IMG/VR virus record: IMGVR_UViG_3300038825_001143
Span: 1-30,380 of that record
Reading direction: 5' to 3' (one strand)
Origin: a virus
Length of the DNA stretch: 30,380 nucleotides
The notes beneath the pieces were generated by a model. It did not search any database. It was not told the DNA's origin and was given only the letters and a program-made list of their open reading frames with translations. The translations under genes were made by a program, and so were the position numbers. Shown in pieces: positions 1,399-27,488 of the stretch. The stretch's first letter is position 1, and each line of letters opens with the position of its first letter.

Positions 1399-1872
1399 GT
1401 GAAATTTGAAGCAATTAAAGGATTAATCGGTGCGGTAGCTCCTACCCTTGGTCAGGCTCTTGGTGGGCCTTTAGGGGGTGCTGCGGCACAAACTATCGCT
1501 AGTGTGTTGGGTTGTAAGCCTGACGAGAAGAGTATTGCTAATGCAGTACAAGCGGCTACCCCAGAGCAGTTGGCAGAGATTAAAAAAGCTGAACTCGACT
1601 TTCAGGTTCAGATGAAGAAGTTAGACGTAGACGTATTCGCGCTTGAGGTAGAAGATGTACAACACGCTAGGTCAGCGTTTAAAGGCGATTGGACACCGAA
1701 GTTTATCGCGGTTGCGTGTGTGTTTTTCTTTGGTGGATACATCGCATTGGTCACGCTTCAAGACCCTGCTGCGAATGATGACGGGATTGTTAATCTTGTC
1801 CTTGGGTATTTAGGCGGAATCGTCTCATCTATTATCAGTTTCTACTACGGCGCATCACATAAGCATGACTAA
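1399..1872 (+). CDS. Holin, three-transmembrane GTA-type
   Basis: This protein of 157 residues resembles the three-span holin family known from gene transfer agents and marine phages (GTA_holin_3TM). I place the start at GTG 1399 because GAGGG lies at 1388-1392, and the resulting VKFEAIKGLIGAVAPTLGQ is a typical family N-terminus. An ATG at 1372 in the same frame would add nine residues. The glycine/alanine-rich segment LGQALGGPLGGAAAQTIASVLG (about 17-38) and a charged helical middle are followed by two clear membrane spans: FIAVACVFFFGGYIALVTL and IVNLVLGYLGGIVSSIISFYY. Holins form membrane lesions that time lysis and release the endolysin. The stop overlaps the lysozyme start by one base. 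Confidence 0.75.
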   Translation: MKFEAIKGLIGAVAPTLGQALGGPLGGAAAQTIASVLGCKPDEKSIANAVQAATPEQLAEIKKAELDFQVQMKKLDVDVFALEVEDVQHARSAFKGDWTPKFIAVACVFFFGGYIALVTLQDPAANDDGIVNLVLGYLGGIVSSIISFYYGASHKHD

Positions 1873-2297
1873 TGAATAGACTAATACAGATGTTAAAAAG
1901 GCATGAAGGCGTTAGAGATAAGGTCTATATGTGCTCTGCTGGTTACGAAACCATTGGTGTTGGCAGAAATATATCAGAATCTGGACTTGGTCTTTCTGAA
2001 GACGAGATAGACTATTTGTTAAGTAACGACATAAAACGGTGTCGCGAAGAGTTAATGGTCGAGTACGAATGGTTTTCAAAGCTAGATAGCGTGCGCCAAG
2101 AAGCCTTGATAGACCTGTCGTTTAATATTGGTCAGACCAAATTGCGTAAGTTTGTTAAAGCCTTGGGGCACATGGCTGCTGGTAACTACGAAGAAGCTGG
2201 TCAGGAGTTCTATCGTAGCCGATGGGCAGAGCAAGTGGGCGACCGATCATTAGAAATTTGCCAGATGATTAGTTCTGGAGAATATCAGGTACGATAA
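1872..2297 (+). CDS. Endolysin, T4-type lysozyme (GH24)
   Basis: This is a phage endolysin of 141 residues that hydrolyses the glycan chain of peptidoglycan. The catalytic region LKRHEGVRDKVYMCSAGYETIG matches the T4 lysozyme layout: Glu12 is in the T4 Glu11 position, Cys21 falls where T4 has Asp20, and Thr27 matches Thr26. Further family features are the GVGRNISE loop, the central RQEALIDLSFNIGQTKLRKF helix and the closing RSRWAEQVGDRS segment, which matches the family's RW..Q...R motif. There is no signal peptide, so release depends on the holin encoded directly upstream (TAATG overlap). The length is slightly below that of T4 lysozyme. Confidence 0.93.
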   Translation: MNRLIQMLKRHEGVRDKVYMCSAGYETIGVGRNISESGLGLSEDEIDYLLSNDIKRCREELMVEYEWFSKLDSVRQEALIDLSFNIGQTKLRKFVKALGHMAAGNYEEAGQEFYRSRWAEQVGDRSLEICQMISSGEYQVR

Positions 2298-2298
2298 A

Positions 2299-4179
2299 AT
2301 GCCATTACAAAAGTTTTTATTTAACCCAGGTATAAACAAGCAAGGTACTAGCTATACCGCAGAGGGTGGCTGGTTTGATGGCAATCTTGTACGTTTTAGA
2401 AAAGGCTTTGCAGAAAAGATAGGTGGTTGGGAAAAGTATATATCTGTTTCTTATGAAGGAACTGGTAGAAAGCTTCATGCTTGGGTTGACCTAGACGGTA
2501 CAAAGCTTCTTGGATTAGGAACTCGATACAAGCTGTACATCCAGGAAGGCTCGTCATACAACGATGTAACACCCATAAGACGCACCAGTGCAGCCGGTGC
2601 CGCTACTTTTGCCGCAACCAACGGATCTTCAACGCTAACTGTTACAGACTCTAGTAATGGTTCTAACGTAGGCGATTTTGTTACATATACTGATGCAGTT
2701 TCTTTAGGCGGAAACATTACTGCGGCAGTGTTAAATCAAGAGTATCAAATACAATCTGTACCAACGTCCAACACTTATACCATTATTGCAAAAGATACAG
2801 ATGGTAATGCGGTTACAGCTAACTCTAGCGATACTGGCAACGGAGGTTCTTCAACCGTAGCCGCTTATCAAATAACAAGCGGCCTTGATGTCTTTGTAGA
2901 CGGAACAGGTTGGGGCGTTGGCGGCTGGGGAACTGGCACCTGGGGCTCAACAAGCTCTCTTACTGACGCTAATCAGCTTAGACTTTGGTCGATGGATAAC
3001 TTCGGTGAAGACTTGATATCAAACCCTCGAGCCGGTGGTGTTTATTATTGGGACAAATCAGACGGTCTTAACACTAGAGCAGTGGCTTTAAGTTCTCTAA
3101 CTGGGTCAAACTTAGCTCCAACCAAAGGGCTCCAAGTAATAGTATCTGACATTGACCGGCATGCCATAGTATTAGGTGCAGATCCCATTGAGAATGGCGT
3201 TAGGTCCGGCCAAATAGACCCACTACTTGTTGCCTTTTCTGATCAAGAAAACATATTTGATTGGGAACCAACGTCTACTAATACGGCTGGTTCTCTTCGG
3301 TGCTCTGCTGGATCTGAGATTATTGGCGCGGTACGGGCTCGACAAGAAACATTGATATGGACCGATGTTGCGCTGTATAGCCTTCAGTTTATAGGACCGC
3401 CTTTGACCTTTGGTCTGAATCTAGTTAACGAAGGTGTTAGCTTGATTGGTCCTAACGCTATTGTTAACTCACCATCTGGCATATTCTGGATGGATAGAAA
3501 GGGCTTCTACACTTATAACGGGTCTGTCGCTCCTGTCCCATGCACAGTTCATGCTTATGTGTTTGATGACTTTGAAGAAGGTCAAGCATTCCAAGTGTTT
3601 GGCATACTCAATAAGCAGTTTGACGAGGTTGGTTGGTTCTACTGTAGCTCTGGTCAAACAGTCATTGATCGATACGTCTTCTTTAACTACGTTGAAAATA
3701 CATGGTCAATTGGCCAGCTTTCTAGAACAGCTTGGCTTGACGAGGGTATATTCTCTCAGCCTATTGCTGCCGGTAAGTATAGTGATACACCTTATCTGTA
3801 CAGCCATGAGGTTGGATATAACAACGATGGTCAGCCGATGGACAATGTATATGTGCAAAGCGCAGACTTTGACATAGGCGATGGAGAAGACTTCCAGTTT
3901 ATAAAACGATTTATTCCTGACGTTAAGTTTCAGGGATCTGGTTCCGATCAGACAATAAACGTTCAAATTAAAACTAGAAACTATCCAGGGAATAGCTTTA
4001 CCACAGATCAAACAACATCTTTTACAAGCACAACAAGCAAAATAGATATGCGTGCAAGAGCGCGACAAGCTGCTATTCGCTTTGAATCTGATGATGATGG
4101 TACAAGTGTGGAAAGAATAGATGTAGGGTTTAGGATTGGAGGCACACGGCTAGATATACAACCTAATGGGCGTAGATAA
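2299..4179 (+). CDS. Virion structural protein, hub/stabilisation-like
   Basis: This protein of 626 residues opens with MPLQKFLFNPGINKQGTSYT and then GGWFDGNLVRFRKGFAEKIGGW. I recognise that opening from large structural proteins of marine podovirus-like phages. The rest is rich in short beta-strand segments and aromatic residues, with repeated tryptophan turns (GWGVGGWGTGTWG near residue 203; ENIFDWEPTS near 319; GIFWMDRKGFYTYNG). This suggests a beta-propeller such as the P22 gp10 stabilisation/hub protein, but that comparison is an inference. There is a low-complexity Ser/Thr/Gly region at about residues 100-190. The gene follows the endolysin by one base and precedes a small protein by a TAATG overlap. 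Confidence 0.75.
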   Translation: MPLQKFLFNPGINKQGTSYTAEGGWFDGNLVRFRKGFAEKIGGWEKYISVSYEGTGRKLHAWVDLDGTKLLGLGTRYKLYIQEGSSYNDVTPIRRTSAAGAATFAATNGSSTLTVTDSSNGSNVGDFVTYTDAVSLGGNITAAVLNQEYQIQSVPTSNTYTIIAKDTDGNAVTANSSDTGNGGSSTVAAYQITSGLDVFVDGTGWGVGGWGTGTWGSTSSLTDANQLRLWSMDNFGEDLISNPRAGGVYYWDKSDGLNTRAVALSSLTGSNLAPTKGLQVIVSDIDRHAIVLGADPIENGVRSGQIDPLLVAFSDQENIFDWEPTSTNTAGSLRCSAGSEIIGAVRARQETLIWTDVALYSLQFIGPPLTFGLNLVNEGVSLIGPNAIVNSPSGIFWMDRKGFYTYNGSVAPVPCTVHAYVFDDFEEGQAFQVFGILNKQFDEVGWFYCSSGQTVIDRYVFFNYVENTWSIGQLSRTAWLDEGIFSQPIAAGKYSDTPYLYSHEVGYNNDGQPMDNVYVQSADFDIGDGEDFQFIKRFIPDVKFQGSGSDQTINVQIKTRNYPGNSFTTDQTTSFTSTTSKIDMRARARQAAIRFESDDDGTSVERIDVGFRIGGTRLDIQPNGRR

Positions 4180-23313: not shown

Positions 23314-23447
23314 AAGTTAGTCTGGATCTGAACGATCGTGAGGTGGAGGAGGTCATGGAGAAGTACGATGACCTGGTCGAGAAGGTGGACAAGATGATGG
23401 CGCTGCTCGAGCGTATCAGTGATCACATTGAGGGGGAGGTGGCGTGA
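23310..23447 (+). CDS. Small coiled-coil protein with TTG start (45 aa)
   Basis: A 45-codon frame starts at TTG 23310 inside the preceding stop (TTGA) and stops at TGA 23445-23447 inside the next start (GTGA). Both joints are 4-base overlaps, the usual sign of translational coupling. The peptide MKVSLDLNDREVEEVMEKYD continues DLVEKVDKMMALLERISDHI, a nearly continuous acidic helix with heptad leucines/valines. It fills an otherwise empty 130-base gap exactly. The function is unknown; it may form a homo- or hetero-oligomer with a neighbour. Confidence 0.6.
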   Translation: MKVSLDLNDREVEEVMEKYDDLVEKVDKMMALLERISDHIEGEVA

Positions 23448-24250
23448 ACCCGTACTTGATTGATGAGCCAGCAGTGATTAGCTTCAGTGGTGGGCGTACA
23501 TCAGCGTACATGCTTTACAAAGTTCTTGAGGCTCATGGTGGGAGGTTGCCTGACTATGTTGTAGTCGCGTTCTCCAACACCGGCAAAGAGATGCCTCAGA
23601 CACTTGACTTCGTTGATCGGTGCTCAAAGGAATGGGATGTGCCGATTGTTTGGCTTGAGTTCATCAAGGAAAAGAAAGCTGGAATCGTTGTAGATTATGA
23701 GACAGCATCGAGAAAGGGCGAGCCTTTTCACAACCTAATCTCTCAGAAGAAGTTCATTCCTAACGATAGGATTCGTGCATGCACTGAGCAGTTAAAGGTG
23801 GTGCCGATCAATAAGTACATGGAATCATTAGGTCATGACCCGTTCTTAACCGTGGTCGGGATAAGGGCGGACGAGCAAAGGCGCGTGGCAAAGCAACGAG
23901 CAAAAGAAAACTACGCGTTGCCCCTAGCCGATGCCGGTGTAACGCTCCAGGACATCGATGCTTTTTGGGCACAGCAGCCGTTTAAGTTGGACCTGCCTAT
24001 GTCTCAGAATGGTGAGAGCCCGTTGTCTAACTGTGACTTGTGTTTCTTTAAGAGCGTATCAAGGAAGCTGTCTATCATCAGGGAGCAGCCGGACATGGCA
24101 GACTGGTGGATCGAGCAAGAGGAAAGGATCGGTAACGTATTCCGGCGTCAGCATCCGTCTTACAAGGAACTCAAGATCATTGCGTCTGATCAAGGTCAGT
24201 TGTTTGATTTTGAAAATGAGGAGTCGATGTCTTGCTTTTGTGGTGATTAG
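23444..24250 (+). CDS. PAPS-reductase-like PP-loop protein
   Basis: This protein of 268 residues starts at GTG 23444 after GGGGGAGG. The PP-loop ISFSGGRTSAYML (Ser15-Gly-Gly, residues 15-20) is that of the adenine nucleotide alpha-hydrolase superfamily, close to the phosphoadenosine phosphosulfate reductase branch. Cys113 (ACTEQLKVVP), Cys197-x2-Cys200 (CDLCFFK) and Cys264-x-Cys266 near the end could hold an Fe-S cluster. Phage homologues are common, but their substrate is not known. The same fold occurs in DndC phosphorothioation and tRNA-modifying enzymes, so nucleic-acid sulfur modification is possible as well as sulfate reduction. No Dnd partner genes are present here. Confidence 0.82.
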   Translation: MNPYLIDEPAVISFSGGRTSAYMLYKVLEAHGGRLPDYVVVAFSNTGKEMPQTLDFVDRCSKEWDVPIVWLEFIKEKKAGIVVDYETASRKGEPFHNLISQKKFIPNDRIRACTEQLKVVPINKYMESLGHDPFLTVVGIRADEQRRVAKQRAKENYALPLADAGVTLQDIDAFWAQQPFKLDLPMSQNGESPLSNCDLCFFKSVSRKLSIIREQPDMADWWIEQEERIGNVFRRQHPSYKELKIIASDQGQLFDFENEESMSCFCGD

Positions 24251-26161: not shown

Positions 26162-26497
26162 TTATTTTCCTTTTCTTGCTTTGAGTAGTAAGGCACTTGC
26201 GGACCTTGATGGAGGTCGAAAGCATCGGCTCTTGCGAGCTTTGTCTGTCAACCTTTTCTTCGCTCTGAAACAACGGTCGAAGGTGTAAGCTTTTCTTCGA
26301 TGCGGAACAGAACAAAACTTTGCACCAACATGGGTGCTTGCGAACTCCACGCGACACCATTGGCAGGTGAAGTTGCGGGTTTTCTTTTGACGATGCATGA
26401 AGCTTGAGTTCTTCCTGAAGCCTCCTCGCCTTTCAGTTGGATTATTTTCCTCGATTTCCAGGCTCTCAATCTCGGGCGCTGCGGTGATGCTCGGCAT
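26162..26497 (-). CDS. Small zinc-finger protein
   Basis: This protein of 111 residues has a preceding AGGAGAG. The central CQWCRVEFASTHVGAKFCSV, followed by PHRRKAYTFDR, is a treble-clef-type zinc site (Cys45, Cys48, Cys62, His66). It is like the short CxxC...FCS..CR fingers of phage HNH and DUF2116-type proteins, with His in the last position. The rest is basic (KKRLTDKARKSRCFRPPSRS), so nucleic-acid binding is likely. Its start overlaps the methyltransferase end by 32 bases. Confidence 0.72.
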   Translation of the reverse strand: MPSITAAPEIESLEIEENNPTERRGGFRKNSSFMHRQKKTRNFTCQWCRVEFASTHVGAKFCSVPHRRKAYTFDRCFRAKKRLTDKARKSRCFRPPSRSASALLLKARKGK

Positions 26498-27488
26498 AGA
26501 CTAACTCTCCTATTCTTTGTACCAGTTGGGGGACTACGGCGTTTCCGAGGGATCTAATTCGGTCCACCCGATTGGGAAGCCCATCAACCACTCGGTCCAC
26601 ATCGGGCTCAGCTTCCCAGTAGGACGATCCGAGTCCTTCGCCTTCGCACAGAGGTACGAGCGCTGGTCCATATGCGTATGGCTTTTGCTCCCGACCGGAC
26701 CACAGTCTTTGTATTCGCTCGCTCTCGGAGTCGGCCACATCTTCACGGCTGTCTCCAGACCATCGCCGGACTTCTTGCTCAGACCCTTGCGGTTGTAGTT
26801 CCCGTGAAGGGTGGGTGTCGGCCAGACTCTCACTTCCTTGGCGAGCGTTCTCTGATTCGCGGTGTCCATGTTCTTCCAGTCGGAGTTCATTGGCGTGGGC
26901 CATACCCTCAGTGGATCCTTTGAGAGGCTGTCCTTGACCGCCGCTCCGATGTTCCATCCGTGTGTGCCGTTCTTGTGAGATGGCGCTACTTCTTCGCCGC
27001 CGGTCATTCTCGTCGGAGTAGGCCACAATCCAGCATCGGTCTCTTTTGTGGTGGGCTTCGACGGCACAAGCCGGAATAACAAACGATTGGACTTCGTAAC
27101 CTTCGGCTTCCAAGTCAAGGCAAACATCGTCGAGTGCCATGCTGACGAACCCAGAAACGTTTTCACCAATGACCCAAGTCGGAGCTGACTCTTTGATGAC
27201 TCGTAACATTTCAGGCCAGAGGTGACGGTCATCTTCCTTGCCAAGTTGCTTGCCTGCAACGGAGAATGGTTGACAAGGGAATCCTCCGCAAACAACGTCA
27301 ACTGCGTTTTTATATTCTCGTCCATCTAATTTCCTTATGTCTTCGTAAATGGTGATGTCCGGCCAGTGCTTGGCCAAAACCTGCCTACAGAATTTATCCT
27401 TCTCGCACATCGCGATGGTCTCCATCCCAGCCCATTCAAGGCCAAGAGAGAAACCACCGATGCCGGAGAAGAGGTCAAGGACTTTCAT
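26466..27488 (-). CDS. dcm: DNA cytosine-5 methyltransferase
   Basis: This protein of 340 residues has motif I DLFSGIGGFSLGLEWAG (5-21), motif IV GGFPCQPFSVAG with catalytic Cys72, motif VI ENV (109-111), motif VIII AHHKRDRCWIVA (145-156) and motif X RSLGNAVVPQ (312-321). It methylates cytosine in a sequence set by the region between motifs VIII and X. Here that region is low-complexity, with four ADS/AHAN-like units (VAYSDE, MAHANE, LADTHP, VADSES). No restriction gene is next to it, so it is probably an orphan phage enzyme protecting DNA from host restriction. A second long frame lies within it. The symbol is a family name, not a claim of orthology to E. coli Dcm. Confidence 0.9.
   Translation of the reverse strand: MKVLDLFSGIGGFSLGLEWAGMETIAMCEKDKFCRQVLAKHWPDITIYEDIRKLDGREYKNAVDVVCGGFPCQPFSVAGKQLGKEDDRHLWPEMLRVIKESAPTWVIGENVSGFVSMALDDVCLDLEAEGYEVQSFVIPACAVEAHHKRDRCWIVAYSDENDRRRRSSAISQERHTRMEHRSGGQGQPLKGSTEGMAHANELRLEEHGHRESENARQGSESLADTHPSRELQPQGSEQEVRRWSGDSREDVADSESERIQRLWSGREQKPYAYGPALVPLCEGEGLGSSYWEAEPDVDRVVDGLPNRVDRIRSLGNAVVPQLVQRIGELVYAEHHRSARD
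26534..27325 (-). CDS. Overlapping frame inside dcm, WPTP-repeat protein
   Basis: A 263-codon frame lies entirely within the methyltransferase gene, on the same strand, one base shifted. ATG 27325 has AAGGA six bases upstream (ATAAGGAAATTAG), a good ribosome binding site. The protein opens with QLTLFAEDSLVNHSPLQASN and ARKMTVTSGLKCYESS, then WHSTMFALTWKPKVTKSNRL and LFRLVPS. Four WPTP units follow (residues 101-104, 142-145, 168-171, 197-200). It ends GKLSPMWTEWLMGFPIGWTE. From memory I recognise this pattern from standalone or dcm-adjacent phage proteins of unknown function. The WPTP codons coincide with the ADS/AHAN repeats of the methyltransferase. Translation is not proven. Confidence 0.55.
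   Translation of the reverse strand: MDENIKTQLTLFAEDSLVNHSPLQASNLARKMTVTSGLKCYESSKSQLRLGSLVKTFLGSSAWHSTMFALTWKPKVTKSNRLLFRLVPSKPTTKETDAGLWPTPTRMTGGEEVAPSHKNGTHGWNIGAAVKDSLSKDPLRVWPTPMNSDWKNMDTANQRTLAKEVRVWPTPTLHGNYNRKGLSKKSGDGLETAVKMWPTPRASEYKDCGPVGSKSHTHMDQRSYLCAKAKDSDRPTGKLSPMWTEWLMGFPIGWTELDPSETP

Follow-up and report, generated by a model that had tools for sequence, protein, structure and literature searches.

Does a second open reading frame inside a phage cytosine methyltransferase gene (dcm) encode a protein in its own right and, if so, what does that protein do? The question is raised by the window analysed here, the whole stretch of 30,380 nucleotides of viral DNA, for which the initial annotation had pointed to a 263-codon frame lying wholly within dcm on the minus strand. 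This frame (26534-27325) is indeed contained in the ORF at 26466-27488 (340 aa) as its +1 frame, AAGGA stands at 27336-27332, six bases ahead of the ATG at 27325, and the product has the four WPTP units ascribed to it; TATGGCCCACGCCAATGA reads MAHANE in one frame and VWPTPM in the other, as had been claimed. The chain read from the outer frame is called alpha and the nested one beta. It is highly likely that the locus encodes one C5-methyltransferase, made of two chains in two frames which assemble into a single enzyme that protects phage DNA, with the WPTP-headed blocks of beta, here called cassettes, as its specificity units. The features are listed below together with the evidence for each; loci gathered for comparison carry the prefix L.

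26466..27488, minus strand: alpha, predicted large chain of the cytosine-C5 methyltransferase, motifs I-VIII and X (340 aa; PF00145, E 3.6e-48)
27021..27488, minus strand: alpha motifs I-VIII, residues 1-156, predicted catalytic domain with PCQ (phmmer)
26553..27020, minus strand: alpha residues 157-312, other-frame reading of the beta cassettes and putative motif IX, variable and open (codon shuffles)
26505..26552, minus strand: alpha motif X, SLGNAVVPQLVQRIGE (alignments; changes back on alpha position 3)
26534..27325, minus strand: beta, nested second chain in the +1 frame of alpha, 263 aa from ATG (phrog_1008, E 4.6e-34)
27332..27336, minus strand: AAGGA, putative ribosome-binding site of beta, 6 bases upstream of ATG 27325 (sequence)
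27029..27325, minus strand: N-terminal part of beta, residues 1-99, over alpha motifs IV-VIII (profile bN, 105 bits versus 43 shuffled)
26906..27028, minus strand: beta cassette 1, LWPTPTRMTGGEEVAPSHKNGTHGWNIGAAVKDSLSKDPLR (missing in L009; found in L006, L007, L010, L012 and L014)
26828..26905, minus strand: beta cassette 2, VWPTPMNSDWKNMDTANQRTLAKEVR (missing in L007, L010 and L014; same type in L021)
26741..26827, minus strand: beta cassette 3, VWPTPTLHGNYNRKGLSKKSGDGLETAVK (missing in L014 and L127; similar unit in L020, L021 and L135)
26618..26740, minus strand: beta cassette 4, the last, MWPTPRASEYKDCGPVGSKSHTHMDQRSYLCAKAKDSDRPT (another cassette in L012; kept in L006-L010, L014, L127, L020, L027 and L028)
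26555..26617, minus strand: putative motif IX in the beta frame, GKLSPMWTEWLMGFPIGWTEL (chimera profile against M.HhaI; single-chain relatives)

The PF00145 match is confined to alpha residues 1-239 and the match to M.HhaI to residues 2-159, residue 159 being the end of motif VIII; with phmmer, the part with motifs I-VIII matches M.HhaI at E 1.2e-18 and M.HaeIII at 4e-14. Motifs I, IV (PCQ), VI (ENV), VIII and X are present in order in alpha, the C-terminal end of which is motif X (SLGNAVVPQ), with G-x-G, PCQ, ENV, RxR and GNAVVPQ invariant or nearly so. Within the variable residues 157-312, the final ~25 (WEAEPDVDRVVDGLPNRVDR) are conserved.

Coding capacity of the two frames

The phrog_1008 family matches beta over nearly its full length, and a tblastn search with beta returned 78 phage records, 58 of which cover at least 80% of it. 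Beta found no match in Pfam, NCBIfam or PADLOC, and nothing meaningful among the PDB sequences, whether searched singly or as a profile. The AlphaFold model of beta alone has a pLDDT of 58 and gave no fold match in Foldseek; a hairpin is predicted at residues 69-89 (pLDDT 76-79), and cassette 4 is the best-predicted stretch of the model.

Such a frame might be nothing but an accident of codon use in dcm, with alpha alone acting as the enzyme. When alpha codons were shuffled synonymously in 226 loci outside the profile training, with 20 shuffles per locus, the longest +1 frame shrank from 266 to 113 codons on average and the beta C-terminal profile fell from 81 to 6 bits, the real sequence scoring above all 20 of its own shuffles in 226 of 226 loci, which refutes the accident for the C-terminal part. 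The N-terminal profile fell from 105 to 43 bits, with the real sequence ahead of all its own shuffles in 220 of the 226 loci. The 43 bits that survive speak for the accident, and they mean that the resemblance in the first ~100 residues of beta is partly imposed by the alpha motifs but mostly not. Given also that no canonical motif IX is seen in alpha in the alignment and that most changes between the cassette parts of the window and of its nearest relative are silent in beta while altering alpha (see below), a codon accident is hardly credible.

The converse was examined by shuffling beta codons after motif VIII, which left the alpha frame open in 2.1% of cases versus 209 of 224 real loci, and alpha residues 289-313, which lie over beta motif IX, score 34.6 bits as they stand versus 13.9 with shuffled beta codons. 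At the start of beta, an ATG combined with a Shine-Dalgarno match of at least 4 occurs in 62% of the loci, compared with 0-16% at control places. The shuffles thus show that the conservation of neither frame is a by-product of the other and that the dual coding is real. The expectation that both frames would prove conserved and non-random was borne out by the shuffles in both directions and by the phrog_1008 match. Since homologues exist in 78 phage records, the frame is intact in nearly all loci and the frames are selected independently, none of the signs named beforehand as speaking against a second gene (lack of homologues, frequent stop codons, no depression of synonymous variation) was seen.

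Selection along the gene

The frame under selection changes along the gene. Among near relatives, differences per site at alpha positions 1, 2 and 3 are 0.057, 0.016 and 0.194 in the alpha-only codons 1-54, 0.098, 0.059 and 0.144 in motifs IV-VIII, 0.255, 0.110 and 0.123 in the cassettes and motif IX, and 0.129, 0.032 and 0.282 in motif X. The alpha-only parts show the usual excess at position 3; the third position of beta corresponds to alpha position 1. As these differences switch by region, the selected frame runs from alpha to beta and back to alpha. Between the window and L006, its nearest relative, there are 20 changes in the cassettes and motif IX, distributed 15, 3 and 2 over alpha positions 1, 2 and 3 (p 1.7e-4), and 16 of them change the alpha protein but leave beta unaltered, against 23% expected by chance; the position bias recurs in two further pairs (p 1.3e-5 and 2e-6).

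Over the variable region, selection acts strongly on the beta frame, and the alpha frame varies. The proposal that this region arose by overprinting therefore holds for the middle of alpha, which reads the beta cassettes in the wrong frame. The switch from alpha to beta to alpha, as read from codon positions, is the pattern of one collinear methyltransferase cut by two frame changes.

Distribution of the nested arrangement

Loci were gathered with beta as query from viral contigs and bacterial genomes, and separately with alpha, and four profiles (alpha motifs I-VIII, alpha motif X, beta N-terminal and beta C-terminal) were placed on every locus. The alpha-anchored set consists of the best 80 loci by similarity and partly shares its contigs with the beta-anchored set. 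The full arrangement, with both beta parts in the +1 frame and motif X in alpha, is found in 185 of the 199 loci anchored on beta and in 77 of the 79 anchored on alpha, and beta is present in 79/79 of the latter, drawn from those best 80. In only three beta-anchored loci was the N-terminal part of alpha not found, and at least two of these lie at a contig edge. Carriers, to judge by record titles, include Bacillota, Pseudomonadota, Bacteroidota, Planctomycetota and Nitrospirota.

Departures from the common form are few. In L047, L102, L143 and L196, alpha stops after motif VIII and motif X is read in the frame of beta, while in L118, L122, L025 and L229 a single indel shifts both frames together, as expected of sequencing error or of a dying gene. 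A Klebsiella aerogenes plasmid (L315) was set aside as uninformative, its frames being broken. One viral contig (L030, 133-1952) carries two distinct nested alpha/beta pairs arranged head to tail. In a Roseovarius MAG (contig OX638333.1), five equal-scoring places (L065-L069) are spread over one chromosome; they are several copies of the same nested methyltransferase locus, perhaps of a multiplied prophage.

Division of the methyltransferase motifs

Beta ends in a conserved segment, GxLNPxWVEWLMGFPxGWT (also given as LxPxWxEWLMGFPxGWT). When a chimera profile, consisting of alpha 1-155 joined to beta 102-263, was searched against the PDB, this end aligned to M.HhaI 269-289 (GKTRKLHPRECARVMGYPDSY), which is motif IX, in the collinear place, although the alignment is short and the piece alone scores about -2 bits. 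The identification as motif IX comes from single-chain relatives, which carry the same piece in frame between the cassettes and motif X. A single ORF with motifs I-VIII, a cassette region, EWMMxLP and GNGV is found in Gordonia, Streptomyces and Propionibacterium phages and in the mycobacteriophage Quico; the cassettes of these enzymes are mostly headed by LPTP, and the Streptomyces phage reads its cassette region in the other frame. The model of one single-chain enzyme (L304) has the C5-methyltransferase fold (Foldseek E 7.8e-13 to M.HhaI), with its cassette region modelled at very low confidence. The alignments thus place motif IX in beta and motifs I-VIII and X in alpha. The initial annotation was right that the end segment gives both EPDVDRVVDGLPNRVDRIRS and PMWTEWLMGFPIGWTELDPS, but it had sought motif IX in the alpha frame near 26553-26617, whereas this motif appears to be encoded in the beta frame.

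Beta-type proteins also occur as separate genes beside dcm, as the initial annotation had stated. Such tandem split genes are gp77/gp76 of Commander, gp6/gp5 of Firecracker and gp78/gp77 of OKCentral2016, mycobacteriophages in which the two genes overlap by 23 to 209 bases. In a tree of the catalytic part, single-chain and tandem forms make up one well-supported group, and the form with motif X in beta falls on three separate branches of the nested group; canonical enzymes sit with weak support on a long branch among the nested ones, and the ancestral architecture is not settled by this tree. The mycobacteriophages ByChance (L308, split) and Quico (L312, single chain) are sisters with close catalytic domains, so that changes between the split and the joined form seem to take place within short times. 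Quico (CDS 1447-3192) has its first cassettes apparently in a "VAD" frame and the later ones in the LPTP frame of one ORF, while in Darolandstone (L293) the entire cassette region is in the VAD frame; this may reflect silent cassettes or frame switching.

These relatives bear on two further explanations. Beta could be a separate accessory protein overprinted de novo, for example with an anti-defence function, and no part of the enzyme; this would suit the want of a recognisable fold in beta alone, and overprinted genes are described as common in viruses (PMC8227390). Against it, beta carries the collinear motif IX that alpha is without, the same cassettes and motif IX stand in frame in single-chain methyltransferases, and beta without alpha was not met among beta-anchored loci save in the three cases noted above. 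An accessory protein is therefore improbable. By its sequence, beta is the missing part of the same methyltransferase, with motif IX and the target-recognition region, and not an unrelated overprinted gene; acting together with the methyltransferase was among the options that the initial annotation had named.

The other explanation is programmed ribosomal frameshifting, by which the frames would be joined and the active enzyme would be a single alpha-beta-alpha polypeptide. It draws on the existence of single-chain relatives, on the order in which the selected frame changes and on the presence of motif X in the beta frame in L047, L102, L143 and L196. Yet beta possesses a start signal of its own, an ATG with a ribosome-binding site, which is enriched across the loci; its N-terminal ~100 residues, which precede the switch point, are conserved beyond the constraint imposed by alpha, and the alpha frame is kept open in its middle and conserved at its end. 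Frameshifting is thus given slightly less weight than even the accessory protein, and two separately started chains are the preferred reading.

WPTP cassettes and their proposed role in target recognition

Each WPTP of the window heads a block of 26-41 residues, and among 256 beta proteins 725 such blocks were counted, 0-6 per protein with a median length of 40. Compared with the window, whole blocks are absent from relatives (block 1 from L009, block 2 from L007 and L010, blocks 2 and 3 from L014), and L012 has a different last block. The resulting length differences in L009, L010, L014 and L127 amount to 90-180 bases and are always a multiple of three, so that both frames survive. Blocks are also common to distant loci: the type of cassette 2 occurs in 15 loci, and 643 block pairs from different loci reach at least 75% identity where the catalytic parts of the two loci stay below 60%. 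The heads leave their mark on the other frame, since WPTP in beta (TGG CCN ACN CCN) forces [LMV]-A-[DHNY]-[ATSP] in alpha and thereby produces the VADx repeats of the alpha frame.

The sequences thus show that cassettes are lost, swapped and held in common by distant loci, a behaviour resembling that of the tandem target-recognition domains in multispecific phage methyltransferases. By analogy with these, the cassettes may read DNA and act as specificity units, and recognition of the DNA target is very probably the task of beta, with its exchangeable blocks. A wider reading is conceivable but falls somewhat short of an even chance, namely that beta consists of interchangeable target-recognition cassettes, with recombination at the sequences that encode their WPTP heads, and that these cassettes are at the same time read in the other frame as part of a second protein, forming a widespread overprinted multispecific phage modification system. 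If this were true, one DNA array would have to stay open in two frames at every gain, loss or swap of a cassette.

Comparison with known methyltransferases

Two-polypeptide enzymes of this kind are already known. M.EcoHK31I, which recognises YGGCCR (Lee, Kam and Shaw 1995, cited in PMC3404938), is composed of a large polypeptide with motifs I-VIII and X and a small one with only motif IX (PMC3404938), and other work has employed it as a naturally split enzyme (PMC3439449). The window shows the same division, with motifs I-VIII and X assigned to its large chain and motif IX to its small chain. The small subunit of M.EcoHK31I is reportedly encoded in another frame within the gene for the large subunit, a feature that the window would share, beta being coded in another frame inside alpha. 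Compared by description only, the two differ in that the window enzyme is a phage enzyme with no restriction enzyme recognised among the scanned window genes, and in that beta contains WPTP cassettes, the number of which ranges from one to several in relatives. A further difference is that a target-recognition domain is predicted in the large subunit of M.EcoHK31I (PMC3404938), whereas the evidence from the window points to beta.

M.AquI is a two-polypeptide C5-methyltransferase for CYCGRG (PMC3404938). Here too motifs I-VIII are in one chain and motif IX is in the other, but motif X of the window is assigned to alpha and the overlap is nearly total; a better match to M.AquI is offered by L047, L102, L143 and L196 and by the mycobacteriophage tandem pairs, which have motif X in the second chain. 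Plasmid pAQ5 of Picosynechococcus PCC 7002 was tried as an M.AquI control and rejected, as its gene sizes do not fit those of M.AquI. The cytosine methyltransferase on this plasmid (L314, 2322-3533) has a +1 frame that stays open over 404 codons, spanning the gene and extending past it, and is possibly a distant case of the same nesting.

The Bacillus phages SPR, SP-beta, phi3T, rho11 and H2 have multispecific C5-methyltransferases with several tandem target-recognition domains (PMC8936443). The nested loci resemble them in having tandem exchangeable units in the variable region, up to 6 with a median of 40 residues. The Bacillus phage enzymes are known as single chains read in one frame, whereas the tandem units of the window are in a nested frame and have a common WPTP head. 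Beta itself is the same protein as phrog_1008 and as the second "DNA cytosine methyltransferase" of Paenibacillus larvae phages, and a beta-type protein is annotated in phage Jacopo as the overlapping gene JACOPO_57. The phrog_1008-type records examined are named "DNA methyltransferase" and make no mention of motif IX, nesting, cassettes or a subunit role. A description of nested dcm genes with cassettes was not found in the literature searched, which is weak evidence of novelty; what looks new is the breadth of the arrangement, the presence of cassettes in the overlap, the frame switch that can be followed base by base, and the series of single-chain, tandem and nested forms.

A model of the enzyme

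The sequence evidence (two coding and conserved frames, divided motifs, collinearity with single-chain relatives, the frame switch, and the gain, loss and sharing of cassettes) suggests a model in which complex formation, activity, a specificity role of the cassettes and a protective purpose are proposed. Alpha and beta would be translated from one message with separate starts, the ribosome-binding site of beta lying inside alpha. Alpha would contribute AdoMet binding and catalysis through motifs I-VIII, together with motif X, and beta the target-recognition region and motif IX; the two would assemble into one enzyme, as those of M.EcoHK31I do. This enzyme would methylate the phage's own DNA and so confer protection from restriction, and cassettes swapped as blocks would change its targets with the catalytic part left untouched. 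The window genes scanned against PHROGs include tail, recombination, primase and terminase functions of a phage, and because no restriction enzyme was recognised among them, the methyltransferase is probably an orphan that protects the phage DNA from host restriction.

Annotation and neighbouring genes

The model would give a function to phrog_1008, a large and poorly described family of phage proteins. Under it, the apparent lack of sense in the second half of many "dcm" genes, as annotated, would be explained, as would the tendency of pipelines to overlook the true target-recognition chain or to report a broken gene. The locus is also one of the rare near-complete gene overlaps for which the direction of selection is readable at each base and a name can be given to both products. 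Should the cassettes prove to be target-recognition units, sequence could be used to predict methylation specificity in hundreds of phages.

For E. coli E21, RefSeq lists alpha only. In a prophage of E. coli ECCTRSRTH03 (L316, 2863-4032), RefSeq gives two incomplete cytosine methyltransferase pseudogene pieces; neither the alpha frame (2818-4029) nor the beta frame (2930-3958) is interrupted, and the pseudogene calls are probably an annotation error caused by the nested arrangement. On the 3' side of alpha in the window, a small ORF (26162-26497, minus strand; 111 aa with several Cys and His), which has no family match at a useful level, overlaps the end of alpha as if co-translated. The same phage also carries a phosphoadenosine phosphosulfate reductase gene (23444-24250, plus strand; phrog_424, E 1.2e-57).
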